The translations under genes were made by a program, and so were the position numbers. From a virus: DNA of 37,709 nt. The notes beneath the pieces are model-generated. The model did no database searches and had not been told where the DNA came from. It was given only the letters and a program-made list of their open reading frames with translations. This document shows positions 2,235 to 37,709 of this stretch, in pieces (positions within the stretch are counted from its first letter, which is position 1; each line of letters opens with the position of its first letter). The stretch is taken from IMG/VR virus record IMGVR_UViG_3300005518_000014, positions 1-37,709 of that record; one strand, 5' to 3'.

Positions 2235-2259
2235 TGCGTAAACGAATCAAGGAGCACTT

Positions 2260-2904
2260 ATGACAAGCAAAGGCGGTTTTGGTCTCACTGTAAAAATCAA
2301 GATTTCATCCACGATGACGACCATCGTGAGCGTGCTCGATGGCGAGATCCCGGAATTCGAGAAGTTCCTGGCTGAGATGACGCCGCACAATGCGACGGGC
2401 GGATATGCCGTGCACCTGGCCACCGGCAAGCGCAAGATGAATGAGTTCAAATTAACGCTTGGCTGGGACTCGGACGAAGCCACTCACGCGGCTGTCTTAG
2501 CTGCCTTCGCTGGCAGCCCTGCGGTTGACATGGCGGTCATTGCGCCGGATGGCACGGATGAGGTGATCGCTTTCAGCGCGCACATCTTCAAGCTGGGCCG
2601 AATCTCACCGCAGGAAGATGGCTACAAATGCGATGTGACGGTGCAGCCCACAGCCGCACCGACGATGGTTACCAGGTACACATTCACAGGCAGGAACGGC
2701 GCAGGTGTATGCACACTGACCGGCGCCAACGTTGGTGACATCGTGGTGCAGGGTTACCGTTCAGCCGGCGGCGCGTATGCCGGTGTGTTTGCCACCGACT
2801 TCCAGACAGTGATCACAGTGGATGACCAGATCCAGCAGGCTTCCATTGCCAATCTTTCAGGCGTGACCTTCACGGTCAAGCTAGTGCCAGCCGGCACGAT
2901 TTAA
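2260..2904 (+). CDS. Major tail tube protein, long form with C-terminal decoration module
   Basis: 214 aa with a strong ribosome binding site (AAGGAGCACTT). Residues 1-135 are the tail-tube domain, clearly paralogous to the next gene (shared stretches such as DGEIPEFEKFLAEMTPH, YAVH.ATGKRKMNEFK and SPQEDGYKCDVT). Residues ~147-214 form an additional beta module with the G-A-x-V-G-D pattern seen at the end of the connector protein. The module probably projects from the tail surface, as Ig-like tail decorations do. Having both long and short tube proteins encoded side by side suggests a mixed or two-part tube. Confidence 0.87.
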   Translation: MTSKGGFGLTVKIKISSTMTTIVSVLDGEIPEFEKFLAEMTPHNATGGYAVHLATGKRKMNEFKLTLGWDSDEATHAAVLAAFAGSPAVDMAVIAPDGTDEVIAFSAHIFKLGRISPQEDGYKCDVTVQPTAAPTMVTRYTFTGRNGAGVCTLTGANVGDIVVQGYRSAGGAYAGVFATDFQTVITVDDQIQQASIANLSGVTFTVKLVPAGTI

Positions 2905-2922
2905 TCAAAGGAGTAGTGCACT

Positions 2923-3333
2923 ATGACATCAATAGGTGGTTTCGGACTCACTGTCCAAATAACTGTTTCCGCGGCGCTGACGGCCATCGCCGATTTGGTC
3001 GATGGCGAGATCCCGGAATTTGAAAAGTTCCTGGCTGAGATGACGCCGCACAGCGCGAGCGGTGGATATGCCGTGCACGTGGCCACCGGCAAGCGCAAGA
3101 TGAATGAATTCAAGATCACGCTGGGCTGGGATTCGGATGCAGCCACGCATGCCGCGATCCTGGCTGCGTTCGACAGCAACGACCCGGTGGGCATGGCTGT
3201 GATAACGCCTGGCGCGGATGAAACGATCACATTCAGCGCGCATGTTTCCAAAGTGGGACGGCTCTCGCCGCAGGAAGATGGTTACAAATGTGATGTCACC
3301 ATCCAGCCGACCGGCGCACCGGTGATCACATGA
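2923..3333 (+). CDS. Tail tube protein, short paralogue
   Basis: 136 aa, preceded by AAAGGAGTAGTGCACT. It is homologous over its whole length to the first 135 residues of the upstream gene, with DNA identity obvious in the segment encoding DGEIPEFEKFLAEMTPH. It lacks the C-terminal module. The pair is a tandem gene duplication. The last codon overlaps the ATG of the tail chaperone gene. One copy may be the bulk tube subunit and the other a variant; the sequence alone does not say which. Confidence 0.87.
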   Translation: MTSIGGFGLTVQITVSAALTAIADLVDGEIPEFEKFLAEMTPHSASGGYAVHVATGKRKMNEFKITLGWDSDAATHAAILAAFDSNDPVGMAVITPGADETITFSAHVSKVGRLSPQEDGYKCDVTIQPTGAPVIT

Positions 3334-10181: not shown

Positions 10182-10733
10182 ATGCACAGCACTATAGTGG
10201 ATTCACCGACAGATCGACCACGCATTTTTTCACATCTGACACGGACGCGCTTTCTGCACATCGAGGATTCGCTCGAGCGTGGGAAGCTGCGTTTTTTTAT
10301 TGGCTCATTTGAGAGGGGCAAAGGCTCGAGTTCCATGGCATACGCTTTCCTGGACGTGGATGATGCGCGCGTGGTCTTCAGTGATATGGCCTGGGGCAAG
10401 CCGGTTGAGTTCATCGATTTCAAAGGCGGGAGAGACAGCAGATTTCATGCGTTGATCTCGCGCGTGTTGAAGATTGACACGAAGGCCGGCATGCCGCGCG
10501 AGGCATCGGCAGTCTGGATCGAGGTGCAGAATGGACCAGGGCAGCAGCTGGGTGATGGCGCAGTGAAACCAGACGGGCTTCCGTCATTGGCGATCTCGAT
10601 CCCGTTGACGATCTTCGAAGCGAGAACGCTGGCATTCGCGTGCCTGGCTTATATGCAGGCTTGGGATGTCGCTCGTCTTGTGCGCAGGCCTGGTGCCGCG
10701 GCGAAACAAGATGATCTCAGTAATTGCCATTGA
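10182..10733 (+). CDS. Uncharacterised protein with a repeat element in its 3' end
   Basis: 183 aa; start ATG at 10182, with AAGGGGAG about 12 bases upstream. I do not recognise a family. The middle (AYAFLDVDDARVVFSDMAWG) and the C-terminal half (IEVQNGPGQQLGDGAVKP, IPLTIFEARTLAFACLAYMQ) look like an ordered alpha/beta protein. The last ~20 codons are made by one of the TCTTGT-N24-ACAAGA elements (10676-10711) and following DNA, so the natural C-terminus may have been replaced when the element arrived. It sits at the end of the late operon. Confidence 0.65.
   Translation: MHSTIVDSPTDRPRIFSHLTRTRFLHIEDSLERGKLRFFIGSFERGKGSSSMAYAFLDVDDARVVFSDMAWGKPVEFIDFKGGRDSRFHALISRVLKIDTKAGMPREASAVWIEVQNGPGQQLGDGAVKPDGLPSLAISIPLTIFEARTLAFACLAYMQAWDVARLVRRPGAAAKQDDLSNCH
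10676..10711. repeat. 36-bp element unit 1 (TCTTGT-N24-ACAAGA)
   Basis: Half-sites at 10676-10681 and 10706-10711. The core contains the palindromes CAGGCCTG (10685-10692) and GCCGCGGC (10695-10702). This unit overlaps the last codons of the gene ending at 10733, the only intact copy inside a coding region. Confidence 0.9.
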
Positions 10734-10760
10734 TTTAATGCACAGCACCCGCTTCGCTTG

Positions 10761-10796
10761 TCTTGTGTGCGGTCGCTCGAGCCTGGCTTCACAAGA
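10761..10796. repeat. 36-bp element unit 2 (TCTTGT-N24-ACAAGA)
   Basis: Half-sites at 10761-10766 and 10791-10796. The core includes GCTCGAGC overlapping AGCCTGGCT. The unit and its right flank (TTGATCGGCGA) are duplicated at 30262 with a different right half of the core. Confidence 0.9.
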
Positions 10797-10811
10797 TTGA
10801 TCGGCGACTAA

Positions 10812-10847
10812 TCTTGTTTGGATATCTCCGGAGCTGCAGGAACAAGA
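10812..10847. repeat. 36-bp element unit 3 (TCTTGT-N24-ACAAGA)
   Basis: Half-sites at 10812-10817 and 10842-10847. The core holds GATATC, TCCGGA and CTGCAG in succession. It forms a composite with unit 2, separated by 15 bp, matching the composite at 30262-30348. Confidence 0.9.
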
Positions 10848-10872
10848 TGATGCACAGCACCCGCTGCGCTTG

Positions 10873-10908
10873 TCTTGTGTGCCGGTGATCATCTGGCCAG
10901 AAACAAGA
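10873..10908. repeat. 36-bp element unit 4 (TCTTGT-N24-ACAAGA)
   Basis: Half-sites at 10873-10878 and 10903-10908. The core holds TGATCA (10886-10891) directly followed by the 10-bp palindrome TCTGGCCAGA (10892-10901). Confidence 0.9.
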
Positions 10909-11097
10909 CAATGGACCATTTTGGGGATAGTCTCGAAATTCGTGACCACAGGAAGCGCCAGGACGAACGCAGTGGAGTCGGGCCACACAGCAACACCCCG
11001 AAATTCCGGATTAATTCTTGTTTGGAAAATCGCTCGAGAAATTACAACCCCCAATCTTGTGCAAATTTAATTGGCCACTTTGCCATTTCCAGAAAGA

Positions 11098-11133
11098 TCT
11101 TGTCGTACTGAAGAGGCGAGATCCTGAACAAGA
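11098..11133. repeat. 36-bp element unit 5 (TCTTGT-N24-ACAAGA)
   Basis: Half-sites at 11098-11103 and 11128-11133 with exact 24-bp spacing. The core palindromes are weak here (AGG...CCT only), so it may be a decayed copy. Confidence 0.85.
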
Positions 11134-11186
11134 CGCACGCACGTTGACCCCTGCCCTCCCCAGATCTGCCCCTGTAAATTTAATAT

Positions 11187-11315
11187 CGCGTAGCCACTAT
11201 ATCTCTCTCCAAACTTTGGGCGTCTGTGTGGCTGGATGGGGCGGGCGGGGGCTGCGCCCACACGGAAGGCGCGAGGCTCCGATCCCCCTGCGCGCGTGCT
11301 GAGTGGCTACACGCG
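11187..11315. other. Long-range inverted repeat with inner GC-rich hairpin (possible structured RNA)
   Basis: GTAGCCACT (11190-11198) pairs perfectly with AGTGGCTAC (11302-11310). The pairing is extended by CGCG on both sides with a 2-base bulge. Inside, GTGTGG (11226-11231) pairs with CCACAC (11258-11263) around a G-rich loop. It lies just upstream of the promoter at 11345. It could be a structured RNA, an operator loop, or the ends of a small mobile relic; nothing decides between them. Confidence 0.35.
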
Positions 11316-11344
11316 CATGAATAGAACATATGTACCTGATTTAA

Positions 11345-11353
11345 TGCTATACT
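11345..11353 (+). promoter_or_regulatory. Extended -10 promoter for the HTH gene
   Basis: TG-C-TATACT: extended TG at 11345-11346 and -10 TATACT at 11348-11353. No good -35 is visible. A start of transcription near 11360 leaves a ~24-base leader containing TTGGAG before the ATG at 11384. Confidence 0.55.
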
Positions 11354-11383
11354 CGATTCATGGTATTGCAATTGGAGATGGTT

Positions 11384-11617
11384 ATGGAAGAGGAAAAAAT
11401 CTTGACTGCCGCTGAAGCCGCTGCACGATTGGGTGTGACCCCGGGCGCGATCGCGCAGTGGTTGAAACAGGGTTATTTCCCCCGTGCCTACCGGGTGAAT
11501 CCACGGACACAATCTGCCTGGCGAATTCCGCAAGGAGATGTGGACGCGTTCATCGAAGAGCGCCGGAAACAACGCGGCTTTTTTTATACGCCAACAAATC
11601 CCCCCATAGCAGCATAG
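11384..11617 (+). CDS. Helix-turn-helix regulator (excisionase/MerR-like HTH_17 fold)
   Basis: 77 aa from ATG 11384, chosen because TTGGAG lies 6 bases upstream; ATG 11360 would be almost leaderless. ILTAAEAAARLGVTPGAIAQWLKQGYFPRAYRV is the classic helix-turn-helix of small excisionase/AlpA-like proteins, followed by AWRIPQGDVDAFIEER, the usual wing and C-terminal helix. Candidate roles are lysogeny regulator or recombination directionality factor. It stands alone, transcribed toward the convergent minus-strand operon at 11652-12200. The 36-bp repeats upstream could be its binding sites, a speculative link. Confidence 0.8.
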   Translation: MEEEKILTAAEAAARLGVTPGAIAQWLKQGYFPRAYRVNPRTQSAWRIPQGDVDAFIEERRKQRGFFYTPTNPPIAA

Positions 11618-11651
11618 ATAGCAGGCTTTCCCCGAATGCTGAACACGCGTT

Positions 11652-11837
11652 CTATTTCAGCGCGCCCTTTGGTAGGATTTTGGATTGGCCATTCATGACG
11701 GCGGTTTCGTATGCGGACCAGGATGGCTGGCCTTTGTAGAAGTAACCAGCCTCACCTGCTATCTTATTGAGTGTGGCCATGCGTTTCGATGAGCGACGGG
11801 TGCTTGTTGTGTCACCCTTGGGCGCGGACTTGTTCAT
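11652..11837 (-). CDS. Small basic protein of unknown function
   Basis: 61 aa, minus strand. Start ATG at 11837 overlaps the previous gene's stop (ATGA) and has AAGGAGCTAACGT in front. Rich in Lys/Ser/Thr in the first 25 residues, then a short Tyr/Trp-containing segment (EAGYFYKGQPSWSAYE). No family recognised. The coupling and RBS support translation. Last gene of a three-gene operon. Confidence 0.6.
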   Translation of the reverse strand: MNKSAPKGDTTSTRRSSKRMATLNKIAGEAGYFYKGQPSWSAYETAVMNGQSKILPKGALK

Positions 11838-12007
11838 ACGTTAGCTCCTTGCAAGGTACAGGTGTGAAAATTGAACTTGACGGTCTGTGATCCATCGAAT
11901 TTCGGATGGGCTTTTATTGGGCTTGATTTGATGGCCTGGTAAGCTGCGACGACGAGGATCCATGTCCAGAAATAGCAGTACGTGAGTGCGGTTTTCAGGT
12001 TTGACAT
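11834..12007 (-). CDS. Small single-pass membrane protein
   Basis: 57 aa, start at 12007 directly after the upstream stop (TAA-A-ATG), with GGGGGAA as RBS. Residues ~5-25 (LKTALTYCYFWTWILVVAAY) form one membrane helix, followed by a short polar tail. Function unknown. A longer reading frame from 12160 exists but would overlap the upstream gene almost completely, so the internal start is preferred. Confidence 0.6.
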   Translation of the reverse strand: MSNLKTALTYCYFWTWILVVAAYQAIKSSPIKAHPKFDGSQTVKFNFHTCTLQGANV

Positions 12008-12008
12008 T

Positions 12009-12200
12009 TTATTCCCCCGCCTTGAATCTGTTTCTGTTTTGGTAGAGCCAGATTTCAAGCCATTCGGCTTTGATGTGCTCAACGTCAGTCTGTGGGTCGA
12101 GCGACTTGGCTGAGGCAATGAGAAGGTTGGCTGTGCTTTGCTCCTTGGCGTCAAATGCACGTTTGATGAGATTTCGGGCAGATTCCTGATTGTTGTTCAT
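12009..12200 (-). CDS. Small acidic/helical protein, first gene of minus operon
   Basis: 63 aa, start ATG 12200 preceded by AAAAGGAAAACAGCC. Predominantly helical (NLIKRAFDAKEQSTANLLIASAK pattern, given here in part: NLIKRAFDAK). No family recognised. It opens the minus-strand operon 12200-11652. Upstream is an intergenic region with a plus-strand extended -10 and a strong hairpin. Confidence 0.6.
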   Translation of the reverse strand: MNNNQESARNLIKRAFDAKEQSTANLLIASAKSLDPQTDVEHIKAEWLEIWLYQNRNRFKAGE

Positions 12201-12220
12201 GGCTGTTTTCCTTTTCCGGG

Positions 12221-12229
12221 TGATATAAT
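12221..12229 (+). promoter_or_regulatory. Extended -10 promoter (TGA-TATAAT)
   Basis: Consensus TATAAT at 12224-12229 with an upstream TG. Expected start near 12236, giving a short RNA that would end at the hairpin 12259-12284. The promoter points away from the minus-strand gene at 12200. Confidence 0.5.
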
Positions 12230-12235
12230 TTGGGC

Positions 12236-12296
12236 GGCTGACCTTTCCGGGTGAGCCGGTCCCTCCCGTTCCTGCGGGAGGGACTATTTGTTTCTC
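12236..12296 (+). ncRNA. Candidate ~60-nt small RNA ending in a strong hairpin
   Basis: Downstream of the extended -10 the sequence folds into two hairpins. The first is GGCT-G-ACC-N5-GGGT-G-AGCC. The second is GTCCCTCCCG-TTCCTG-CGGGAGGGAC (12259-12284), a perfect 10-bp stem followed by TATTTGTTTCTC. This has the shape of a small RNA with an intrinsic terminator. The hairpin alone could instead be a shared terminator. No homologue is known to me. Confidence 0.4.
12259..12284 (+). terminator. Strong hairpin, possible intrinsic terminator
   Basis: Perfect 10-bp GC-rich stem with a 6-base loop. The + strand side is followed by TATTTGTTT, a broken T-run, so termination of plus-strand transcription is plausible. 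The minus-strand side has no T-run. Confidence 0.55.
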
Positions 12297-12421
12297 AATG
12301 ATGTAATATTATCACCGTCCTACAACGGTGTCAAGCTCTACACATGTCAATTGTGCAAGTTAGGGGAGTGACTTTTACGCTTAGTGTAAAACCGATGAAT
12401 GGGAAGTGGCTCAGCGCGCGG

Positions 12422-12435
12422 TCCCGACGTCGGGA
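12422..12435. repeat. Palindrome TCCCGACGTCGGGA, copy 1
   Basis: Perfect 14-bp palindrome, followed after one T by the TCTTGT of unit 6. The same arrangement recurs at 13153-13173, and a third copy lies at 30353-30366. Companion of the 36-bp element family. Confidence 0.85.
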
Positions 12436-12436
12436 T

Positions 12437-12472
12437 TCTTGTATGTGGCCACAGCTTCCAGGAATAACAAGA
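12437..12472. repeat. 36-bp element unit 6 (TCTTGT-N24-ACAAGA)
   Basis: Half-sites 12437-12442 and 12467-12472. The core has two clear palindromes: TGTGGCCACA (12444-12453) and TTCCAGGAA (12456-12464). Unit 7 begins 3 bases later. Confidence 0.92.
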
Positions 12473-12475
12473 TCT

Positions 12476-12511
12476 TCTTGTATACCTGGCGCCCAGGTCC
12501 TGAGGACAAGA
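12476..12511. repeat. 36-bp element unit 7 (TCTTGT-N24-ACAAGA)
   Basis: Half-sites 12476-12481 and 12506-12511. Core hairpins are ACCTGG-CGC-CCAGGT (12484-12498) and CCT-G-AGG (12499-12505), packed side by side. The element abuts the stop codon (12512-12514) of the minus-strand membrane protein gene. Confidence 0.92.
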
Positions 12512-12703
12512 CTAGCGCCGCTCCCGATCGGTAAGAATATAGATCCCCAGTGGGAGCACATAAAGGATCAGCCATACCAGGGCCCAATCTTCCAGAGTCT
12601 GTTGATCGATCAATGACTTGGTGAATGCCCAGAAGAGCACCGCGAAAGTTAGAACGATGACGACGAACACGTGCTTCTCACGGCGGGTGAAGAAGTTAAA
12701 CAT
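12512..12703 (-). CDS. Small two-helix membrane protein
   Basis: 63 aa. Start 12703 lies inside the last codons of the upstream PH-domain gene (8-base overlap), so translation is likely coupled. Two membrane helices: residues ~10-28 (KHVFVVIVLTFAVLFWAFTK) and ~39-57 (DWALVWLILYVLPLGIYIL), with charged ends. It forms the end of a minus-strand operon with the PH-domain protein and may be its membrane anchor, an inference from position only. The stop codon touches a 36-bp repeat unit. Confidence 0.68.
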   Translation of the reverse strand: MFNFFTRREKHVFVVIVLTFAVLFWAFTKSLIDQQTLEDWALVWLILYVLPLGIYILTDRERR

Positions 12704-13112
12704 TATCTGCGGGTGGTTGTTTATCTGGCAGTTGAGGGTGAGCTTCTGTAAGGATTTGTTTCATAATATAGCGATAGGCTTTATGCGCCTTATCTGCTCC
12801 GCGGAACTGAAAGCTGTAATTCCCTGCCGCGGTGAGCAGTGTGATCTCGCTTGTCTGAAATATCATGCCTTCATCGGCAGAAGCCACTCCAATGATCTGG
12901 TTGTATGGGATCGAAACCATGGACTTCTTTTTGGTTAGGAAGGCCTGATCGTAAAAGATGATCCGTTGATCAGTAAAACCAACAAATCCTGTTCCAGCAC
13001 CTTTGCAGTCAAAAACCCCCACCAGCGTTTCGCCTGGGATCACATATGCCTGGATTCGCTTGAGCTGACTCTCGTTGTCGTATACAACTTTTTGTTCCGC
13101 AGGTTGGGTCAT
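12696..13112 (-). CDS. Bacterial PH-domain protein
   Basis: 138 aa, start 13112 with GGAAAGGAGAAACG upstream. The body (residues ~15-120) fits the bacterial PH domain: YVIPGETLVGVFDCKGAGTG, FVGFTDQRIIFYDQAFLTKK, SIPYNQIIGVASADEGMIF, then an EITLLTAAGNYSFQFRG strand pair and a closing helix KAHKAYRYIMKQIL. These domains usually mediate membrane or protein association. It sits between the PD-(D/E)XK gene and the small membrane protein, in a position where prophages often carry lysogeny-expressed (moron or defence) genes. Confidence 0.78.
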   Translation of the reverse strand: MTQPAEQKVVYDNESQLKRIQAYVIPGETLVGVFDCKGAGTGFVGFTDQRIIFYDQAFLTKKKSMVSIPYNQIIGVASADEGMIFQTSEITLLTAAGNYSFQFRGADKAHKAYRYIMKQILTEAHPQLPDKQPPADNV

Positions 13113-13130
13113 CGTTTCTCCTTTCCAATT

Positions 13131-13166
13131 GGTTCAACGTTGAACCGCGCGGTCCCGACGTCGGGA
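13131..13166. repeat. Paired palindromes GGTTCAACGTTGAACC and TCCCGACGTCGGGA
   Basis: A 16-bp perfect palindrome (13131-13146) and a 14-bp perfect palindrome (13153-13166) separated by GCGCGG. The same pair occurs in inverted order at 30353-30388. They lie upstream of the PH-domain gene's RBS, so they could be operators. GTTCAACGTTGAAC also appears at 16875-16888 inside a coding region. Confidence 0.85.
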
Positions 13167-13190
13167 TTCTTGTCCACAGGACTGACTTTG

Positions 13191-13226
13191 TCTTGTATGC
13201 CTGGTGGCCAGGACCTGAGGACAAGA
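13191..13226. repeat. 36-bp element unit 8 (TCTTGT-N24-ACAAGA)
   Basis: Half-sites 13191-13196 and 13221-13226. Core: CCTGG-TGG-CCAGG and CCT-G-AGG, close to unit 7. It ends one base before the stop codon of the minus gene at 13228. A lone TCTTGT half-site at 13168 looks like a unit interrupted by this one. Confidence 0.92.
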
Positions 13227-13227
13227 T

Positions 13228-14055
13228 TTAGCTTTCAGTTGTTGGCGGCTGTGTGGTTTCGGGTTCTTCAGGTTTGGGTTCAACATTGGATGAAGGCGAT
13301 TCTTTGGTCACTTTTTTGACGGGGCGTTTGTTGACACGGTTGACCTTGCGCAGGGCTTCATCGGCTTTCTCGCCTTCCATGACATCGCGCTTGATAATCT
13401 CCAGGACTAGAACATCCTTGATCTGATTGTTATCTATTTTCACATCAGGGGAGATCTTGCGAAGCTCGCGACGAATGACATCGAGAACTGGATCGCTCAA
13501 TGTAATTGCGCCGATGAAGAAGCGGCTGAGCGCCTGGCGTTGGGTATGGTAGCCACCTAGGACGGACCTGCTGAGTCCTTCCTTGCTGAGCAGATATAGG
13601 TTTTCGATATCGCCGGTGATCTTAGCATTGAGACGCATGAAGTCGATTTGGAGAACCAGGTCAAAGCCAATGGGTTTGCCATATGTGACCTTATAAATAT
13701 TCCAAAATGCACCATTGGTGAGGGCAACCCATTCGATGCCTTCATTGGCGGCGTAATCGACAGCCTGTTTGATATAGGCATCCTTCAAGTCAAGCCCGAT
13801 TGCTTTCACTTCGATGAGCATTTGTGATTTTCCATCAAGTTTGATGGCGAGATCCACGAAAGTGCCACGGATAACATATTCGGATGTGATCTCGGAATAT
13901 TTATCGAAGCCGAACACATCGGCAAGCATGTCGACGATAATGGTGACGGTATCGGATTCGTTTATGTCGCGGGATTTGGCGGAGGTGAGAACAGGTTGAA
14001 ATCTTTTGATGCCTGCACTTAATCTATCAGATACTTTTGTGGGGACGGTTGCCAT
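13228..14055 (-). CDS. PD-(D/E)XK protein, type I restriction HsdR N-terminal-like
   Basis: 275 aa, start 14055 with AAGGAGAATACAAT upstream. Nuclease-fold motifs in order: E33 (INESDTVTIIVDMLADVFGF), D68 (TFVDLAIKLDG), E82-V-K84 (MLIEVKAIG) and Q98 (IKQAVDYA), matching HSDR_N / type I restriction R N-terminal domains. The domain stands alone, without helicase parts, at residues ~10-130. Residues 130-235 are helical and the last 40 are Pro/Glu/Lys-rich. Stand-alone versions are common in prophages, and a role in defence or in nucleic-acid binding is possible. Transcribed divergently from the HTH gene at 14154, with a 36-bp element between. Confidence 0.78.
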   Translation of the reverse strand: MATVPTKVSDRLSAGIKRFQPVLTSAKSRDINESDTVTIIVDMLADVFGFDKYSEITSEYVIRGTFVDLAIKLDGKSQMLIEVKAIGLDLKDAYIKQAVDYAANEGIEWVALTNGAFWNIYKVTYGKPIGFDLVLQIDFMRLNAKITGDIENLYLLSKEGLSRSVLGGYHTQRQALSRFFIGAITLSDPVLDVIRRELRKISPDVKIDNNQIKDVLVLEIIKRDVMEGEKADEALRKVNRVNKRPVKKVTKESPSSNVEPKPEEPETTQPPTTES

Positions 14056-14075
14056 ATTGTATTCTCCTTCTTGTA

Positions 14076-14111
14076 TCTTGTTAATCAGATCCTTAGCGGC
14101 GCCCTACAAGA
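14076..14111. repeat. 36-bp element unit 9 (TCTTGT-N24-ACAAGA) in a divergent promoter region
   Basis: Half-sites 14076-14081 and 14106-14111. The core has ATC-A-GAT and GGCGCC. It fills the space between the divergent genes at 14055 (-) and 14154 (+) and lies just upstream of the -35-like TTGACG at 14119, an operator-like position. Confidence 0.9.
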
Positions 14112-15100: not shown

Positions 15101-15940
15101 CTATTCAGAATTCTCCCCTAGCAGACCGTCCACAATCAGGTATTTGCGGACCGCTTCCAGCCGCAGGGTCCGCGTGTAGCGTTTGATCATTTTCGAATCG
15201 CTCCAACGACCGCCCTCCATCAGAACTCGTTCAGGTGCCCCGTTGATCGTGCCGATCACGGCAAAGGACCTGCGGAAGTCATGCGGGGAAAGCTGAATAC
15301 CAATCTTCCGTCCCCATTCCCTGACAATTGAGTATAAGCCCTCTGGCGTAAGGCCTTCTCCAGTTCTGCTGTGCGTGAATAGGAAGCCTTGACCATCTGC
15401 AATTTTGCGGAAGGCTTTCCAGCGCTCGATATGCGCGGCAGTCTGCTCACCAAAAACGGCAGCCTCCCACTGGCCGCCTTTCGTGATCACTTGCAGGACG
15501 CGACGCTCCGTATCGGTATCGGCTTGTTGAAGCCTGCACAGTTCTGATTCGCGCAAGCCTGTATCGAGATCGAGGGAACAAATGGCGAGGTCCCTGGCTC
15601 CCTTGGGCTCATAGGGGTTGAATGACGCGAGCAGCTTCAAGGCAGTTTCTTTATCGAGCGCGCGCTGTGGCTTTCCCTGGATGCGTTTTAGTCTTGCTGT
15701 AAGAGCGGGGTGATTATGACCAAATTTCCATGCCAGATATTTTTGTGTGGCTGCCAGTCCAACACACTGGCGCGCGTTCCCCCATCCACTTTGTTCCAAA
15801 ATTTCCAATAACTCTGAGGCCGGCATATTCGCCAGATCTTGGCTCCTGGCGAATATGCGGCTCAGAACATCGAGATAGGTCCGCCGCGTAGATGCGGCAT
15901 AGGGAAACGATGCAAGGAAGTTCGCAAGATCATCATTCAT
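15101..15940 (-). CDS. int: Tyrosine recombinase (integrase)
   Basis: 279 aa, start 15940 with AGGTGAAAA upstream. An N-terminal SAM-like core-binding domain (residues ~1-85) precedes a catalytic domain with R130 (DTGLRESEL), K154 (ITKGG), H220-x-x-R223 (SPHDFRRSF), W246 at the usual His/Trp position (GGRWSD), and nucleophile Y255 (MIKRYTRT). No separate arm-binding domain is evident; the protein is XerC/D-sized. Adjacent to the tRNA-Gly fragment, which strongly supports site-specific integration. Confidence 0.95.
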   Translation of the reverse strand: MNDDLANFLASFPYAASTRRTYLDVLSRIFARSQDLANMPASELLEILEQSGWGNARQCVGLAATQKYLAWKFGHNHPALTARLKRIQGKPQRALDKETALKLLASFNPYEPKGARDLAICSLDLDTGLRESELCRLQQADTDTERRVLQVITKGGQWEAAVFGEQTAAHIERWKAFRKIADGQGFLFTHSRTGEGLTPEGLYSIVREWGRKIGIQLSPHDFRRSFAVIGTINGAPERVLMEGGRWSDSKMIKRYTRTLRLEAVRKYLIVDGLLGENSE

Positions 15941-22505: not shown

Positions 22506-22541
22506 TCTTGTGCGCCGGCGTGGTCCGCAGCGGAGACAAGA
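22506..22541. repeat. 36-bp element unit 10 (TCTTGT-N24-ACAAGA)
   Basis: Half-sites 22506-22511 and 22536-22541. Core palindromes CGCCGGCG (22513-22520) and TCCGC-A-GCGGA (22524-22534). Begins one base after the stop codon at 22504. Confidence 0.93.
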
Positions 22542-22544
22542 CTA

Positions 22545-22580
22545 TCTTGTATGCCTGGCGCCACGATCGGGATGACAAGA
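22545..22580. repeat. 36-bp element unit 11 (TCTTGT-N24-ACAAGA)
   Basis: Half-sites 22545-22550 and 22575-22580. Core palindromes TGGCGCCA (22556-22563) and CGATCG (22564-22569). Three bases separate it from unit 10; an extra ACAAGA follows at 22582. Confidence 0.93.
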
Positions 22581-24641: not shown

Positions 24642-24677
24642 TCTTGTATTGATCAACTGCGGATCCATAGGACAAGA
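24642..24677. repeat. 36-bp element unit 12 (TCTTGT-N24-ACAAGA)
   Basis: Half-sites 24642-24647 and 24672-24677. Core palindromes TTGATCAA (24649-24656) and GGATCC (24661-24666). One base after the stop codon of the preceding gene, as with units 8 and 10. Confidence 0.92.
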
Positions 24678-28170: not shown

Positions 28171-30099
28171 ATGCATCCCGCTACGCAATACGCAGTCAAC
28201 GCGGTCGAACAGACCATCGTTACGGGGAGATGGGAGCGGCTTGCCTGTTTGCGTCACTTGTATGACCTGGCGCGCGCTGGGCAGCTACCGGCATTGGTCG
28301 CAAAGCGGATCGAGAAGGCCACAGGCAGACCGGTCCCGCCGCGCGATCCGGAGTGGTTGTGGGTTTTCGATGAAGAGCAGGCAACCTTTGTTTCGATAGA
28401 ATGGTTTAAGCAACTGGTCCATGTGGAGGGACAATTAGCAGGGCAGCCGATTGAATTAATTCCAGCGCATGTGTTCGAGCTCAGCTGTATCTTTGGATGG
28501 GTTTCCAAGTTGGAAAGGCTCAAGCGCGCGAATGGTCGTGAAACAGGCCTGCGCCGATTCAATATTGTGTTCATCACCGAAGCACGCAAAAATGCCAAGA
28601 CCACACGCGGCGCTGGTATTGGGAATTACATGATGGTGGGCGATATGGAAATGAGCCCGTCGGTATACTGCACCGCGGTGGATCGCAAACAGGCACGCGT
28701 GCTGTATCACTATTCGGCAACGATGGCAGATAAGAGTAGAGATCTGCGAAAGCGGCTTCGTATTGGAAGATTTGAAATGCGGCACCGCACTCGCGGCGGG
28801 GAAATGACAGCTTTTTCAGGTGAGATAAAAAATAAAGATTCATTCAATCCGAGCTGCGCATTTATTGACGAGTATCATGCACACCCCACATCGAAGCTGT
28901 TTGATGTGATGTCCAATGCGCAGGGGCAGCGCGCGCAATCGTTGATCTTCACCATCACGACCGCCGGCGATGATGTGGAGAGTCCGTGTCACCAGGAATA
29001 TGAATATTGCAAGCTGATCCTGGAGGGATCGGTGAGCGACAAATCGGATGCGACGAAGAATGAGAATTATTTTGTGATGATCCGTGAAATGGATGAGCAC
29101 GATGATGAGCACGATCCTCGCAACTGGATCAAATCGAATCCGCTGCGGGCATCCACGCCGAAAGGATTGGAAAAATTGAGACAGCAGCACGATACCGCTT
29201 TCGGCTCCAAGATCCCGGAGAAGATCCGCGCGTTCCGGATCAAGAATTTGAATAAATGGCAGCACGGGAACGAGCACAGCTATATGGGCGATTTCATGAT
29301 AGGTGAAGGGAGCCAGCAATCCAAATGGGAACAGTGTGCAGTCTCGCGCGAGGCGTTCCTGGGAATGACGCGCGGTTTGTTGTGCGTTGTGGGGGGAGAT
29401 CTTTCCAAGAAGATCGATCTGACCGCGCTCGCGTATGTCTTTGCGCTGCCGGATGACTGCATTGGGATCACGGCCCATGGATTCATGCCTGAAGGCGCGG
29501 TTGAAAAACATCGGAAATCCGACAAAATTCCTTATCGGGATTGGGCAAAGGCCGGATGGCTCACCATCACTCAGGGCGATGTGACCGATTATCAAACCCT
29601 GATCGATCAGATCGAAGCGATCAACGGGAAGCTGCTCGCCGATAAATTGGCTGTGGATGATGAAAAAGAAAAAAAACGGACAATGACCAGGCTCTTGAAG
29701 TATCATTATGCGGCGTTGAATGGCTGGCAGGTGCATGAATTTTGCTACGACCCATATAATGCGACGCACCTGAAAAACGAGCTGGATGATCTGGGATACA
29801 CGACCATCGAAGTGCGGCAGACGATGCCAAATCTAAACGAGCCAACAAAATTATTTCGGGAGGCTGTCGCCGCTGGAAAAGTTGTGCACGATGGATCGCC
29901 TTTGCTGACCTGGTGTGTGGGCAACGCGCAAGAGATCGTCGACACGAAGGAGAATATTATGATCTCGAAGAAACACGCCGGCGACACAAAGCGCGTGGAC
30001 CTGCTGGCTGCCGGCATTGATGCCTTGTTCCGGATCCAACCACTGCGTGAGCAGACCCGGTATCAGAATTATGTTAATTCGGATGAGTTTGGGCTTTAG
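28171..30099 (+). CDS. terL: Terminase large subunit (HK97 type)
   Basis: 642 aa. ATPase: Walker A-like EARKNAKTT (137-145) and Walker B CAFIDEYH (229-236), with the coupling motif IFTITTAG (~259-266). The nuclease domain begins with GGDLSKKIDLTAL (D410) and continues to the conserved C-terminal acidic cluster near KRVDLLAAGIDA. It fits the Terminase_1 family (HK97 gp2-like), and the length is slightly above the usual ~550-600. With the HNH protein and P27 small subunit this forms the packaging motor. Confidence 0.95.
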   Translation: MHPATQYAVNAVEQTIVTGRWERLACLRHLYDLARAGQLPALVAKRIEKATGRPVPPRDPEWLWVFDEEQATFVSIEWFKQLVHVEGQLAGQPIELIPAHVFELSCIFGWVSKLERLKRANGRETGLRRFNIVFITEARKNAKTTRGAGIGNYMMVGDMEMSPSVYCTAVDRKQARVLYHYSATMADKSRDLRKRLRIGRFEMRHRTRGGEMTAFSGEIKNKDSFNPSCAFIDEYHAHPTSKLFDVMSNAQGQRAQSLIFTITTAGDDVESPCHQEYEYCKLILEGSVSDKSDATKNENYFVMIREMDEHDDEHDPRNWIKSNPLRASTPKGLEKLRQQHDTAFGSKIPEKIRAFRIKNLNKWQHGNEHSYMGDFMIGEGSQQSKWEQCAVSREAFLGMTRGLLCVVGGDLSKKIDLTALAYVFALPDDCIGITAHGFMPEGAVEKHRKSDKIPYRDWAKAGWLTITQGDVTDYQTLIDQIEAINGKLLADKLAVDDEKEKKRTMTRLLKYHYAALNGWQVHEFCYDPYNATHLKNELDDLGYTTIEVRQTMPNLNEPTKLFREAVAAGKVVHDGSPLLTWCVGNAQEIVDTKENIMISKKHAGDTKRVDLLAAGIDALFRIQPLREQTRYQNYVNSDEFGL

Positions 30100-30252: not shown

Positions 30253-30261
30253 GCGATTTTG

Positions 30262-30297
30262 TCTTGTGTGCGGTCGCAGCTCCCAGGAATAACAAGA
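30262..30297. repeat. 36-bp element unit 13 (TCTTGT-N24-ACAAGA)
   Basis: Half-sites 30262-30267 and 30292-30297. It shares the left core GTGCGGTCG with unit 2 and the right core CCAGGAATA with unit 6, i.e. a mosaic of the two. Confidence 0.92.
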
Positions 30298-30312
30298 TTG
30301 ATCGGCGATCAG

Positions 30313-30348
30313 TCTTGTTTGGATATCTGGCCACGTGCAGGGACAAGA
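30313..30348. repeat. 36-bp element unit 14 (TCTTGT-N24-ACAAGA)
   Basis: Half-sites 30313-30318 and 30343-30348. It shares the left core TTGGATATC with unit 3 but has a different centre (TGGCCA, CACGTG). Confidence 0.92.
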
Positions 30349-30352
30349 GTTT

Positions 30353-30388
30353 TCCCGACGTCGGGATTGCGCGGTTCAACGTTGAACC
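30353..30388. repeat. Paired palindromes TCCCGACGTCGGGA and GGTTCAACGTTGAACC, inverted order
   Basis: 30353-30366 and 30373-30388, separated by TTGCGC. Inverted relative to the pair at 13131-13166, with GCGC kept between them. Confidence 0.85.
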
Positions 30389-30395
30389 ACGTTCG

Positions 30396-30431
30396 TCTTG
30401 TCTCTGCAGGAGCTGTGCCAGGCACACAAGA
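30396..30431. repeat. 36-bp element unit 15 (TCTTGT-N24-ACAAGA), inverted orientation
   Basis: Half-sites 30396-30401 and 30426-30431. The reverse complement core begins GTGCC-T-GGCAC and contains CTGCAG, resembling the left-core consensus of the other units. So the family has a polarity, and this copy is flipped. Confidence 0.9.
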
Positions 30432-30452
30432 CCGTGACAGTCCGGGGATTGT

Positions 30453-30499
30453 GACTTCTCGATCAGTCACGACCGCTGCAAAGTCACAAGCGTGACTCG
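30453..30499 (+). repeat. 47-bp inverted repeat, left copy, bounding the methyltransferase cassette
   Basis: Perfect reverse complement of 31403-31449. It overlaps the last codons and stop (30484-30486) of the minus-strand methyltransferase, so the gene's C-terminus is encoded by the repeat. Contains several GTSAC motifs. Suggests a mobile or invertible cassette. Confidence 0.93.
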
Positions 30500-31284
30500 G
30501 CGACCGTGACTCCTCCTGGAACTGTCACAGTCAGCTCAGTCACACTTCGACGCCGCTCCATTCGCTTTCTACAAGCGGCCAAAGCCATCACTTTCCGACC
30601 TTCAACCAATCGGCTACACCCACACAAGCACAGCCGCGTGGACCGTGACGAGAATCTATCTGTGACTGCACGTGCGAGCACACGTGCCATCGGCACAGGT
30701 ACGCCATTCCCAACCGCGTGATACTTCGCAGTCACAGACATAGACAGATCGAAGTCACGCGGCAAGCCTTGTAATTCACAGAAGTCAGGCCAGCCGCGAC
30801 GATCAACCTTACCGCCCTCCGTTGCTAGTGCAATCTTCAAAGGCGAACCCATAGGGGCAACACGAACAGGAACAATCACAGATCCATCGAGAGAGCCGAA
30901 TTGAAAATGCCGGAGCCGGACTTGTCGCATCCCACACTCACGCGCGTTCAGGTCGAGCCGTTGGATTGAATAGCCATCAATCGAAACATTCGGCACACGC
31001 GGAACATTCTCGAGCAAAAACCAAGAAGGCCGAGCATCCAATACAACGCGCTCGAACTCATGCAGCATTTCAAGACTGTAGCCTGTTGGGTTTCTGTTCG
31101 AGCCGCTGAAGTCCTGGCATGGACTCCCGCCTATCACACCATCAAAGTGACCAGCCGGAACATTGAATGTTCGAATATCTCCACCCCAAAGTAAATCGGG
31201 CCCACGTACAACACAGAACCCCTCCGCTTCGAATCCACGACCAAGCAGATCAATGCCAGGAAAAATTGATAGCACAATTTCCAT
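30484..31284 (-). CDS. DNA cytosine-5 methyltransferase
   Basis: 266 aa. Motif I SIFPGIDLLGRGFE (6-19), motif IV GGSPCQDFSG with catalytic C56, motif VI ENVP (92-95), motif VIII RQVRLRHF (120-127), motif X YHAVGNGVPVPMA (188-200). The target-recognition region between VIII and IX is short (~35-40 aa). A C-terminal Cys cluster (LCLCGCSRLVEGRKVMALAA, then C-R-K-R) is a small zinc-like knuckle seen in phage methyltransferases. No restriction partner is present, so it is probably protective or regulatory. Lies between perfect 47-bp inverted repeats and opposes the surrounding late genes. Confidence 0.9.
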   Translation of the reverse strand: MEIVLSIFPGIDLLGRGFEAEGFCVVRGPDLLWGGDIRTFNVPAGHFDGVIGGSPCQDFSGSNRNPTGYSLEMLHEFERVVLDARPSWFLLENVPRVPNVSIDGYSIQRLDLNARECGMRQVRLRHFQFGSLDGSVIVPVRVAPMGSPLKIALATEGGKVDRRGWPDFCELQGLPRDFDLSMSVTAKYHAVGNGVPVPMARVLARAVTDRFSSRSTRLCLCGCSRLVEGRKVMALAACRKRMERRRSVTELTVTVPGGVTVAESRL

Positions 31285-31478
31285 GCTTCAAAATTTAACA
31301 GAGAAGCCGTGACTTGTCAATAGTAAACGTGACAGGACCGGTCACAATAATCAAAGCTCAGTCACACTTGGCTGTGACTGAGCTTTGAATCTCTGTGCTC
31401 GACGAGTCACGCTTGTGACTTTGCAGCGGTCGTGACTGATCGAGAAGTCGCGTTTGCCGGTGGGTCACATTTCGGTGC
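31285..31478. other. Non-coding region rich in GTSAC motifs and a 15-bp hairpin
   Basis: Upstream of the methyltransferase start. It holds nine GTGAC/GTCAC motifs, the pair GTGAC-N7-GTCAC (~31330-31346), the hairpin CAAAGCTCAGTCACA-CTTGGC-TGTGACTGAGCTTTG (31352-31387, 15-bp perfect stem) and the right 47-bp inverted repeat. No gene supported. Confidence 0.75.
31403..31449 (-). repeat. 47-bp inverted repeat, right copy
   Basis: Perfect reverse complement of 30453-30499. Lies upstream of the methyltransferase and just before the promoter at 31454-31484, so inversion of the segment would change the promoter environment little but would flip the gene. Confidence 0.93.
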
Positions 31479-31490: not shown

Positions 31491-31642
31491 ACGATTTGCT
31501 TACGCCGGGCCAAGCACCGGCAGAATCGACAACTGAGCGCACTCCTGGTGTAGTCCGGGAGACCCATTGGAAAAGATGCGTCCGATGAATCTCTTAAGAG
31601 ATTTATCGGACGTTCGTGTTTAACTCCGGAGAAGGCAATGGC
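31491..31642 (+). ncRNA. Structured leader RNA upstream of the head operon
   Basis: A ~150-base leader between the promoter and the first gene. Possible stems are GCCGGGC-region pairing (about 31501-31520) and CTCC...GGAG (about 31541-31560). A striking stem is CGTCCGATGAATCTC-TTAA-GAGATTTATCGGACG (31579-31612): 15 bp with one G-U, followed by TTCGTGTTT. It may be an attenuator or a processed 5' leader. No known riboswitch core recognised. Confidence 0.45.
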
Positions 31643-31978: not shown

Positions 31979-32145
31979 AAGATTGGATAAGCAATTATCT
32001 CGACGATATTTTTTACTGGCTGGGGGCTGCGTTGATCACCGCGGGCGCGTATCTTATTACTCCTGTGGGAGCTTTTTTTTCTGCCGGCATCTTTTGTTTG
32101 GTTTTTAGTTACTTGATCGGAAAGGCTAAGGCGAATCAGTCATGA
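31975..32145 (+). CDS. Small two-helix membrane protein
   Basis: 56 aa, start overlapping the previous stop (ATGA at 31975) and its own stop overlapping the portal start (ATGA at 32142). Helices at residues ~12-30 (IFYWLGAAL..AGAYLI) and ~31-49 (GAFFSAGIFCLVFSYLI). Small membrane proteins in front of portal genes are frequent; function unknown, holin-like topology possible. Confidence 0.65.
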   Translation: MKDWISNYLDDIFYWLGAALITAGAYLITPVGAFFSAGIFCLVFSYLIGKAKANQS

Positions 32146-33365
32146 TTGTTGCCAGTGCGTTAACACCTGCGAAGCCAGCCGAACAGCCGAAGCTCGAGTC
32201 CGTGCCGGACCAGGGCGGGGGCATCTACGCGGGCCGCGCGCAAACGAAGGCCCGGCAGCCTGTGGGTCCGGAGCTGTCGAAGAGGGTGGCAGTAGTCTTT
32301 CGCTGTGCGAATGGCATCAGTGACGATATCGCCAATATGCCGCTTCAGCAGTATCGCCGCACGAATAACAAGACCGATCAAGTCCCACCGGATGTGACCC
32401 TCCGCAATATGGCCTATCTGCTCGAGGTGGCGCCGAACCGCTGGATGACGCCATTCGTTTTGAAGAAGACATCAGTCATGTGGCTGCTGTTCTGGGGCAA
32501 TGCGTTGATCTGGCAGCCAGCGCCGCCCGCCCAGCGCGAGTTGTTCATCCTGCCTACCAACATGACGACGCCCAAGCTGGATCAAAATGGATATCTTTGG
32601 TACGAGGTGCGCTTCCCTAACGGTGATAAAAAAATGATCCCCGCGGTCGAAGTGATGCACGTGATGATCAACTCGACGAACGGACTATGGGGCAGATCTG
32701 TGTTGGAGTATGCGCGCGAGACAGTCGGCCTGCGGCTGGGGATGGCTGCAACGCAGAGTAGCATTCAGGGCCATGGCTTGAACCCTTCGGCGTATGTGCA
32801 GGTGAATGCATCGCTCGACAAAGCCGGGCGGGAGAAATATCGAGAGGCTTACAGCGAGGTCATCTCGGGTTCCGAGAATGCGGGCAACCTGGTGGTCTTC
32901 GACAACAAAGTGACGAAGTTCGAACCGATCACAATGAATCCCCATGATGCCCAGTTCCTGGAACAGATCAATGTAACTGATTTTGACCTGGCTAATTTTT
33001 TCAAGTACCCGGCTTATAAGCTCAACATGGGGAAGCAATCGTATGAGAGCAACGAACAGCAGGACCTGGATTATCTGAAATCCACGCTCGACCCGCACCT
33101 GGTGCAGTGGGAGCAGGCAGCGCGTTTGCGCTGGTTGCCAGAGACTGATCAGGAGAGCGGTTATTTCAAATTCATCCGTGAGTCGATCCTGCGCACGAAT
33201 GCCAAGAGCCGAGCGGATCTGCATACGACCCAGATCGCTTCCGGCATGTTGACGCCTAATGAGGCACGCGCGATCGAGGACCGCAACAGTTATCCCGATG
33301 GCGATAAGTTCTGGATGAACCGGAACAATGGCGAGATTGGAGTACCAGACAATGCCCCAGCATAG
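32142..33365 (+). CDS. HK97-family portal protein
   Basis: 407 aa. Typical features: RVAVVFRCANGISDDIANMP near the start (residues 49-67), WLLFWGNALIW, the loop EVMHVMINSTNGLWGRSVLE, the wing segment GKQSYESNEQQDLDYLKSTL (helical clip), and the crown region with LTPNEARAIEDRNSYPDGDK at the end. It forms the dodecameric DNA channel at one capsid vertex. Overlaps the small membrane gene by 4 bases. Confidence 0.94.
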   Translation: MIVASALTPAKPAEQPKLESVPDQGGGIYAGRAQTKARQPVGPELSKRVAVVFRCANGISDDIANMPLQQYRRTNNKTDQVPPDVTLRNMAYLLEVAPNRWMTPFVLKKTSVMWLLFWGNALIWQPAPPAQRELFILPTNMTTPKLDQNGYLWYEVRFPNGDKKMIPAVEVMHVMINSTNGLWGRSVLEYARETVGLRLGMAATQSSIQGHGLNPSAYVQVNASLDKAGREKYREAYSEVISGSENAGNLVVFDNKVTKFEPITMNPHDAQFLEQINVTDFDLANFFKYPAYKLNMGKQSYESNEQQDLDYLKSTLDPHLVQWEQAARLRWLPETDQESGYFKFIRESILRTNAKSRADLHTTQIASGMLTPNEARAIEDRNSYPDGDKFWMNRNNGEIGVPDNAPA

Positions 33366-37234: not shown

Positions 37235-37657
37235 ATGGCCAAGAAAGCTGTTCAGGAAGATAACGATTTTATCAAGGTCACCAAGGATGGTGAGGTCATC
37301 GAGATCAGCCCGCTGGCGCTGGCTAACCACATTCAGCTGGGCTGGGTGCTCTTCGCTGAAGAGATGGGTAACGCCCAGGCAGTGGATGCCCAGGCCGCGC
37401 ATGAGAAGGCAGAAGCGGATGCGATTGCGGCTCAAGAGAAGCTCGCGGCGGATAACAAGGCTGCCATAACGAAAGCGGAAGCTGATGCCAGGGCTGCCCT
37501 GGCAAAGACGGCGCCTGCATCCAGGGCTGCCCAGAAGAGCGCGGAGGCCGCCGCTGAAGTTGCACGCAAGAAAGCTGAAGCCGAAGCTCAAGCCGCAGCG
37601 GATGCTGAAGCTGCCCGGAAGAAGGCTGAAGCGGAAGCCAGGAAAGCGGCGAAGTAG
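37235..37657 (+). CDS. Ala-rich coiled-coil head-region protein
   Basis: 140 aa, RBS AAAGGAGAACGATC. The first ~45 residues (FIKVTKDGEVIEISPLALAN, then QLGWVLFAEE) form a small domain common beside phage head genes. The remainder is a long Ala/Glu/Lys coiled coil (heptads such as AEAARKKAEAEA). Its 3' end is repeated at bases 1-63 because the contig was cut here. The next gene on the circle is the connector at 129. Confidence 0.75.
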   Translation: MAKKAVQEDNDFIKVTKDGEVIEISPLALANHIQLGWVLFAEEMGNAQAVDAQAAHEKAEADAIAAQEKLAADNKAAITKAEADARAALAKTAPASRAAQKSAEAAAEVARKKAEAEAQAAADAEAARKKAEAEARKAAK

Positions 37658-37709
37658 GCCCCACCCCCGCCCTCCCCAAATATCCTTCGGAGTATTTGGA
37701 GAGGGAGCT
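37594..37709. repeat. Terminal direct repeat, right copy
   Basis: Identical to 1-116; see the left copy. Confidence 0.93.

Follow-up and report, generated by a model that had tools for sequence, protein, structure and literature searches.

We found that a C5-cytosine DNA methyltransferase gene carried by a phage is flanked by arrays of GTGAC sites, and that among its relatives such arrays accompany the enzymes that possess a cysteine-rich C-terminal tail. The reading we favour, at a probability of roughly 60%, is that of a horizontally exchanged orphan methyltransferase that would bind its own portable operator array through the zinc-ribbon-like tail. The gene lies in the window, the whole stretch of 37,709 nucleotides that was analysed, a circularly closed contig of a 37.6-kb phage with identical ends (1–116 and 37594–37709). 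The initial annotation had singled out the gene for the perfect 47-bp inverted repeats on its two sides. The finding is real and much wider than that: the enzyme is ordinary, and it is the portable, tail-linked site arrays that are unusual.

The methyltransferase gene and its flanking GTGAC dyads

The methyltransferase matched PHROG 116 and belongs by its features to the C5 class, with a catalytic PC motif, ENV, the AdoMet motif FPGxD, GN(G/A)V and the HhaI/HaeIII fold. An AF2 model (mean pLDDT 86) was confident up to the tail helix and of low confidence for residues 250–266, and a Foldseek search with this model returned M.HaeIII (3ubt_A, E 1.8e-12) and M.HhaI. The target-recognition region is short, and the C terminus forms a cysteine-rich, zinc-ribbon-like tail (CxCGCxR..ACRKRMERRR, residues about 215–250). 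When 18 sequences were aligned, C219, C221, C223 and C238 together with R239, R241 and R244 were invariant in the tail, as were the catalytic residues. No Pfam DNA-binding model matched the tail above the cut-off.

The gene is surrounded by the terminase large subunit gene, the site clusters, a gene for a 120-aa protein without known function and the portal gene (Table 1), and it runs against the terminase and portal genes, in agreement with the initial annotation. No cognate restriction endonuclease gene was found beside the methyltransferase, so the locus does not qualify as a restriction-modification system; the sole HSDR_N gene seen was 17 kb away (13228–14055). Nor did a recombinase gene adjoin it. 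The sequence at the right border of this variable gap was kept in phages with and without the cassette (L005, L019 and L022). It lies upstream of the 120-aa gene that precedes the portal gene and, with its strong palindrome, resembles a regulatory element or a conserved RNA.

Table 1. Positions of the methyltransferase gene, its site clusters and its neighbours in the window
Feature	Position	Strand	Details
Terminase large subunit (TerL), left neighbour	28171–30099	plus	PF20441/PF03354
Three TCTTGT-N24-ACAAGA dyads beside the cassette	30262–30431		at 30262, 30313 and 30396; separate site family
3′-side dyad cluster	30434–30543		dyads 30434–30470, 30451–30487, 30492–30528
Left copy of perfect 47-bp inverted repeat	30453–30499		part of downstream site cluster
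C5-cytosine DNA methyltransferase	30484–31284	minus	266 aa; PF00145, E 1.4e-20
Further 3′-side pair	30506–30543		spacing 33
Predicted methyltransferase promoter	31292–31320	minus	TTGACA-N17-TAAATT
5′-side dyad cluster	31309–31468		dyads 31309–31345, 31329–31365, 31374–31410, 31432–31468
Right copy of perfect 47-bp inverted repeat	31403–31449		part of upstream site cluster
Degenerate 5′-side dyad	31415–31451		
Right border of variable gap	31540–31615	plus	CCTGGTGYAG.CCGGGA...; palindrome 31579–31612
Portal	32142–33365	plus	

Aligned with each other, the two flanks matched over 47 nt at 100% in minus orientation (E 9e-24), which confirmed the 47-bp sequences as perfect inverted copies. The left one spans the stop codon and last codons of the gene; the right one lies upstream of the start, beginning 119 bp before the ATG. 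Around this perfect core the inverted repeat extends to arms of 70 nt (87%; 30434–30503 and 31399–31468), and the window has just one other inverted pair that reaches 25 nt. By scanning for inverted 5- and 6-mers at a fixed distance, we found that both copies are built of GTGAC-N27-GTCAC dyads, which had been overlooked at first. Each dyad measures 37 bp overall with half-sites exactly 32 bp apart; the whole window held seven exact dyads (0.02 expected), all of them beside the methyltransferase gene. They form two clusters, of which the one on the 3′ side overlaps the last codons and the stop of the gene, and the outer ends of the 70-nt arms coincide with the outermost GTGAC and GTCAC of these clusters (30434 and 31468). 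Flank-to-flank comparison revealed no long inverted repeat like that of the window in L005 or other relatives, where the matches next in rank were a direct repeat of 31 bp (L006/L136) and short matches of the arrays. Because the other members are without long inverted repeats, the perfect repeat reads as a probable local duplication between the two clusters in the window phage, not as a transposon end.

Site arrays follow the cysteine-rich tail among relatives

Relatives were sought in IMG/VR, both by two adjacent GTGAC dyads and by enzyme homology, and in GTDB with one genome per species. They were found in tailed phages, in inoviruses (in L161, genes for M13-type proteins I and IV adjoin the methyltransferase), in a corticovirus (Pseudoalteromonas phage GXT1010), on a Methylomonas plasmid, and in chromosomes or prophages of Verrucomicrobiota, Chloroflexota, Pseudomonadota, Bacteroidota and Thermodesulfobacteriota. 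A single one of 50,697 annotated phage records contained a relative, annotated as a hypothetical protein. Searching annotated phages with the region itself gave no match, and a 23-base array segment had no exact match in IMG/VR.

The same dyads, often on both sides, adjoined homologs that were 52–82% identical and lay in unrelated contigs. We found GTGAC/GTCAC arrays beside 47 of 55 distinct loci with cysteine-tail homologs and beside none of 18 tail-less homologs of the same family (at least 39% identity). Median enrichment of GTGAC/GTCAC in the flanks was 4.9-fold for the 55 tail-bearing loci versus 0.6-fold for 32 tail-less ones (p 1.5e-12), and seven tail-bearing homologs were without arrays. 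The presence of the tail predicts GTGAC sites; the tail itself has no Pfam match above the cut-off. Array type also clustered on a tree of the catalytic domain, with 10 label changes versus 35.8 in shuffles: the dyad enzymes grouped together, the tandem-array enzymes formed one branch (support 99) and the tail-less enzymes another (support 86).

The tandem arrays belong to a sister clade, in which a half-site recurs directly every 23 or 24 bp instead of in dyads spaced by 32 bp. Arrays of 23 bp had 8 copies in L112, 11 in L113 and 5 in corticovirus GXT1010, arrays of 24 bp were present in L160, L161 and L163, and the sequence between tandem copies differed. The half-site common to dyads and tandem arrays is Y-GTGAC-N4-C; its C at position 10 (C10) reaches 85% conservation both in the dyads and in the arrays of 23 bp.

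Several variants of this arrangement were observed. In L160 and L161 (2917–3830) the 24-bp GTGAC array runs in frame into the gene, where it codes for an N-terminal extension and for the linker from the catalytic part to the zinc tail, with repeated V-T residues. In L017, L080 and L188 the clusters persist around a methyltransferase gene that is missing most of its catalytic part. Four records (L068, L078, L098 and L076) had scattered GTGAC-N27-GTCAC dyads, either far from a methyltransferase gene or with none found in the record (L076 and L078). Many of the hits to the dyad arrays, matches of 82 bp with two sites 45 bp apart (for example L058, L060 and L063), are probably unrelated and were left out, as no methyltransferase was present in the locus.

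A candidate operator at the enzyme's own promoter

In the window, a half-site AGTCAC directly follows the first hexamer of the predicted promoter (TTGACA-AGTCAC), and the same TTGACAAGTCAC layout was seen at the predicted promoter in three close relatives, L005, L006 and L007. Judged by position alone, 39 of the 55 loci had candidate sites in the last 100 bp before the start, and several inoviral loci had sites at −4, −18, −36 and −50. A promoter-like match overlapping a site was found in only 4 of the 55 loci, by a simple consensus. The position of these sites is that of a candidate regulatory site at the enzyme's own promoter, as in M.SsoII-type enzymes.

M.SsoII, which represses its own gene, places an extra domain on a regulatory site and its methyltransferase domains on the DNA alongside (PMC3978073). 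Like M.SsoII and M.Ecl18kI (PMC3978073), the window enzyme combines a C5 methyltransferase with a small extra domain and an inverted-repeat site at its own promoter, and by analogy negative feedback would be expected. On our proposal, the zinc-ribbon-like tail would bind GTGAC, and each dyad would take up two enzyme molecules, with their catalytic domains on the DNA between the anchors, close to the conserved C10. Half-sites 32 bp apart are separated by about three helical turns, which would put the two anchors on the same face of the DNA. Enzyme bound at the 5′ cluster may then repress its own gene, and such repression would keep the enzyme level low and the cassette functional in any new host genome.

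M.SsoII and M.Ecl18kI differ from it in several ways: their extra domain is an N-terminal region and not a C-terminal cysteine-rich tail, the window gene has no adjoining cognate restriction gene, its family has many sites of fixed spacing, often on both sides, rather than one 15-bp quasipalindrome, and its carriers are several kinds of phages and plasmids. The controller (C-protein) boxes of restriction-modification systems also consist of operator repeats, inverted or direct, set at a fixed spacing in front of a methyltransferase gene, but the window has no C-protein gene and the sites track the tail of the enzyme itself. Solitary phage C5 methyltransferases (PHROG 116/PF00145), which include multispecific Bacillus phage enzymes, share the catalytic core, the PC and ENV motifs, carriage by phages and the lack of a restriction partner; they differ in that the window enzyme has a very short target-recognition region, the zinc-ribbon-like tail and linked GTGAC arrays. 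A search of the open-access literature found no described system of this kind. We regard a new form of self-regulating orphan methyltransferase, with putative binding and repression by the tail, as the probable interpretation.

Some observations count against the operator or go beyond it. Dyads lay remote from the gene in L068, L078 and L098, seven tail-bearing homologs had no arrays, promoter overlap was limited to 4 of the 55 loci, and the tail did not match a Pfam DNA-binding model above the cut-off. An operator would not require as many as 11 sites, sites on the 3′ side or the in-gene array of L160 and L161, and the operator reading leaves the variable palindromes inside the sites (see below) unexplained.

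From sequence alone, the results tie a phage methyltransferase family to a defined DNA anchor, and its target and regulation are therefore directly testable. They also suggest how an orphan methyltransferase can travel with its control region among unrelated viruses, namely tailed phages, inoviruses and a corticovirus, as well as among plasmids.

The gene and its arrays travel as a unit

Over 933–940 bp, the cassette of L160 was 95–97% identical to its counterparts in L161 and L163, with no flanking homology outside the cassette, and the phage backbones of L161 and L163 were only 83% identical over 3.8 kb. The left edge of the segment common to the three coincides with the first array site or falls just outside it. 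Since near-identical cassettes lie in non-homologous flanks, the cassette travels as a unit. The proposal of a transposase-less mobile cassette in the initial annotation is therefore supported in outline, given that relatives with their clusters lie in unrelated phage contexts, but the perfect inverted repeat does not mark the defining end of the cassette, since only the window has a repeat of that length. Conserved terminal inverted repeats were lacking in the other copies, whose best flank matches were short or direct. When target-site duplications were checked, a 31-bp direct repeat was found to bound the cassette in L006 only, and the window was without a clean empty site.

In the closest relative, L005, the ortholog (82% amino-acid identity) occupies the same terminase–portal gap in the opposite orientation; L019, of the same phage group, has no cassette in this gap. 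Cassette DNA was 74% identical between L005 and the window and terminase DNA 83%. With one in four DNA positions differing between the two cassettes, inversion is indistinguishable here from independent insertion. As with phage 'morons' and other transposase-less cassettes, an accessory gene with its own promoter sits between structural genes, against the operon, and moves as a unit; unlike them, it brings a conserved array of sites resembling protein-binding sites, and neither defined ends nor a conserved target duplication were seen.

These data bear on an alternative that we consider unlikely, in which the dyad clusters are recombination sites at which a recombinase acting in trans, from phage or host, inserts the methyltransferase as cargo in either orientation, in line with the transposase-less element of the initial annotation. 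The edge of the L160/L161/L163 segment at the first array site, the opposite orientations of the window and L005 cassettes at a single locus, the direct repeat around the L006 cassette and the arrays on both sides in many members are all consistent with it. However, homologous exchange could yield the same L160/L161/L163 mosaic, many members have one-sided arrays (L099, L111–L113, L166 and L170), and there is no conserved terminal repeat, conserved target duplication or adjoining recombinase. Moreover, site type tracks the enzyme tail and the tree, which a foreign recombinase would not need.

A second family of dyads in the window phage

Next to the cassette we found dyads of a different kind, TCTTGT-N24-ACAAGA, exactly 36 bp long. 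The window contains 15 of them versus 0.00 expected, mostly at gene borders (10676–14111, 22506–22580, 24642–24677 and 30262–30431), and they occur also in other members of the same phage group (L020–L022, L024, L029 and L037–L054). Their interiors are perfect palindromes of varying sequence. The idea that they are sites of another C5 methyltransferase was rejected, as no such enzyme was present in nine other dyad-bearing records; in related phages the dyads had no link to any PF00145 gene, and a motif scan of TCTTGT phages gave no convincing second zinc-tail protein. Candidates for the binding protein are an HTH_17 protein (11360–11617) and an integrase (15101–15940).

A stretch carrying two TCTTGT dyads occurs twice in the window (10758–10847 and 30259–30348, 79% identity) with its palindromic interiors altered en bloc, CTCCGGAG in one copy and TGGCCA with CACGTG in the other. 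The dyad at 30262 resembles a hybrid, with a left half like that of the dyad at 10761 and a right half like that of the dyad at 12437 (12437–12472). The HSDR_N gene, a stand-alone gene on the minus strand for the N-terminal part of a type I restriction nuclease (13228–14055), is directly bounded by TCTTGT dyads at 13191–13226 and 14076–14111.

Palindromes inside the sites and further readings of the arrays

The GTGAC half-sites, too, hold perfect palindromes of varying sequence, which overlap C10 and lie in the approximately 10 bp after the anchor (GCCGGC, CGATCG, GGCGCC, ATCGAT, TCCGGA and CCWGG are examples). Even palindromes of at least 6 bp were present in 109 of 310 dyad half-sites (60 ± 7.5 in column shuffles), in 24 of 61 tandem half-sites (8.6 ± 2.6) and, for the TCTTGT dyads, in 107 of 157 (30 ± 4.7). 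Palindromes of at least 8 bp were present in 44 of 79 TCTTGT elements, with 7.3 expected from a first-order Markov model. Column, within-site and Markov shuffles ruled out an effect of composition. CCWGG, GCWGC, GATC, AGCT and TCGA were enriched, and CCSGG, GCSGC and CATG were not, a vocabulary that appears like that of restriction-modification systems. The rest of the window genome revealed no avoidance of palindromes (631 observed, 640 expected). Because the TCTTGT phages examined had no C5 methyltransferase, the palindromes belong to the type of site and not to the enzyme. Variable palindromes in sites of fixed length, in two unrelated families, may bear on how phages handle restriction-modification.

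A speculative extension, to which we give a small chance, is a portable array that joins a GTGAC anchor bound by the tail to a varying, restriction-site-like palindrome, such that anchored methylation or competing host enzymes would switch the gene. If true, this would be an exchangeable phage module with a built-in sensor of, or buffer against, host restriction-modification, and the anchor-swapped TCTTGT version would serve other genes in the same phages. Marginally less probable still is that the clusters are preferred methylation substrates instead of operators, the tail anchoring on GTGAC and C10 being methylated within whichever palindrome comes next; the array would then be an epigenetic switch, or it would sense host restriction-modification enzymes competing for the palindromes. 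Such methylation would fit the conservation of C10, the excess of palindromes after the anchor over shuffles and the selective enrichment of certain words among them. But the TCTTGT dyads of the same phages have stronger palindromes still without a C5 methyltransferase, so that the palindromes need not concern this enzyme, and the lack of palindrome avoidance elsewhere in the phage genome also speaks against it.

A simple invertible switch, in which recombination of the 47-bp arms flips the methyltransferase gene on and off, was suggested by the perfect repeat and would suit the opposite orientation in L005, but it is highly improbable, given that the predicted promoter lies inside the arms so that inversion keeps gene and promoter together, that L005 and other relatives have no long inverted repeat, and that no invertase lies near the gene.

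Elsewhere in the window, the tail region (2259–3326) contains a tandem gene duplication, with blocks of 288 and 117 nt that are 77–78% identical.
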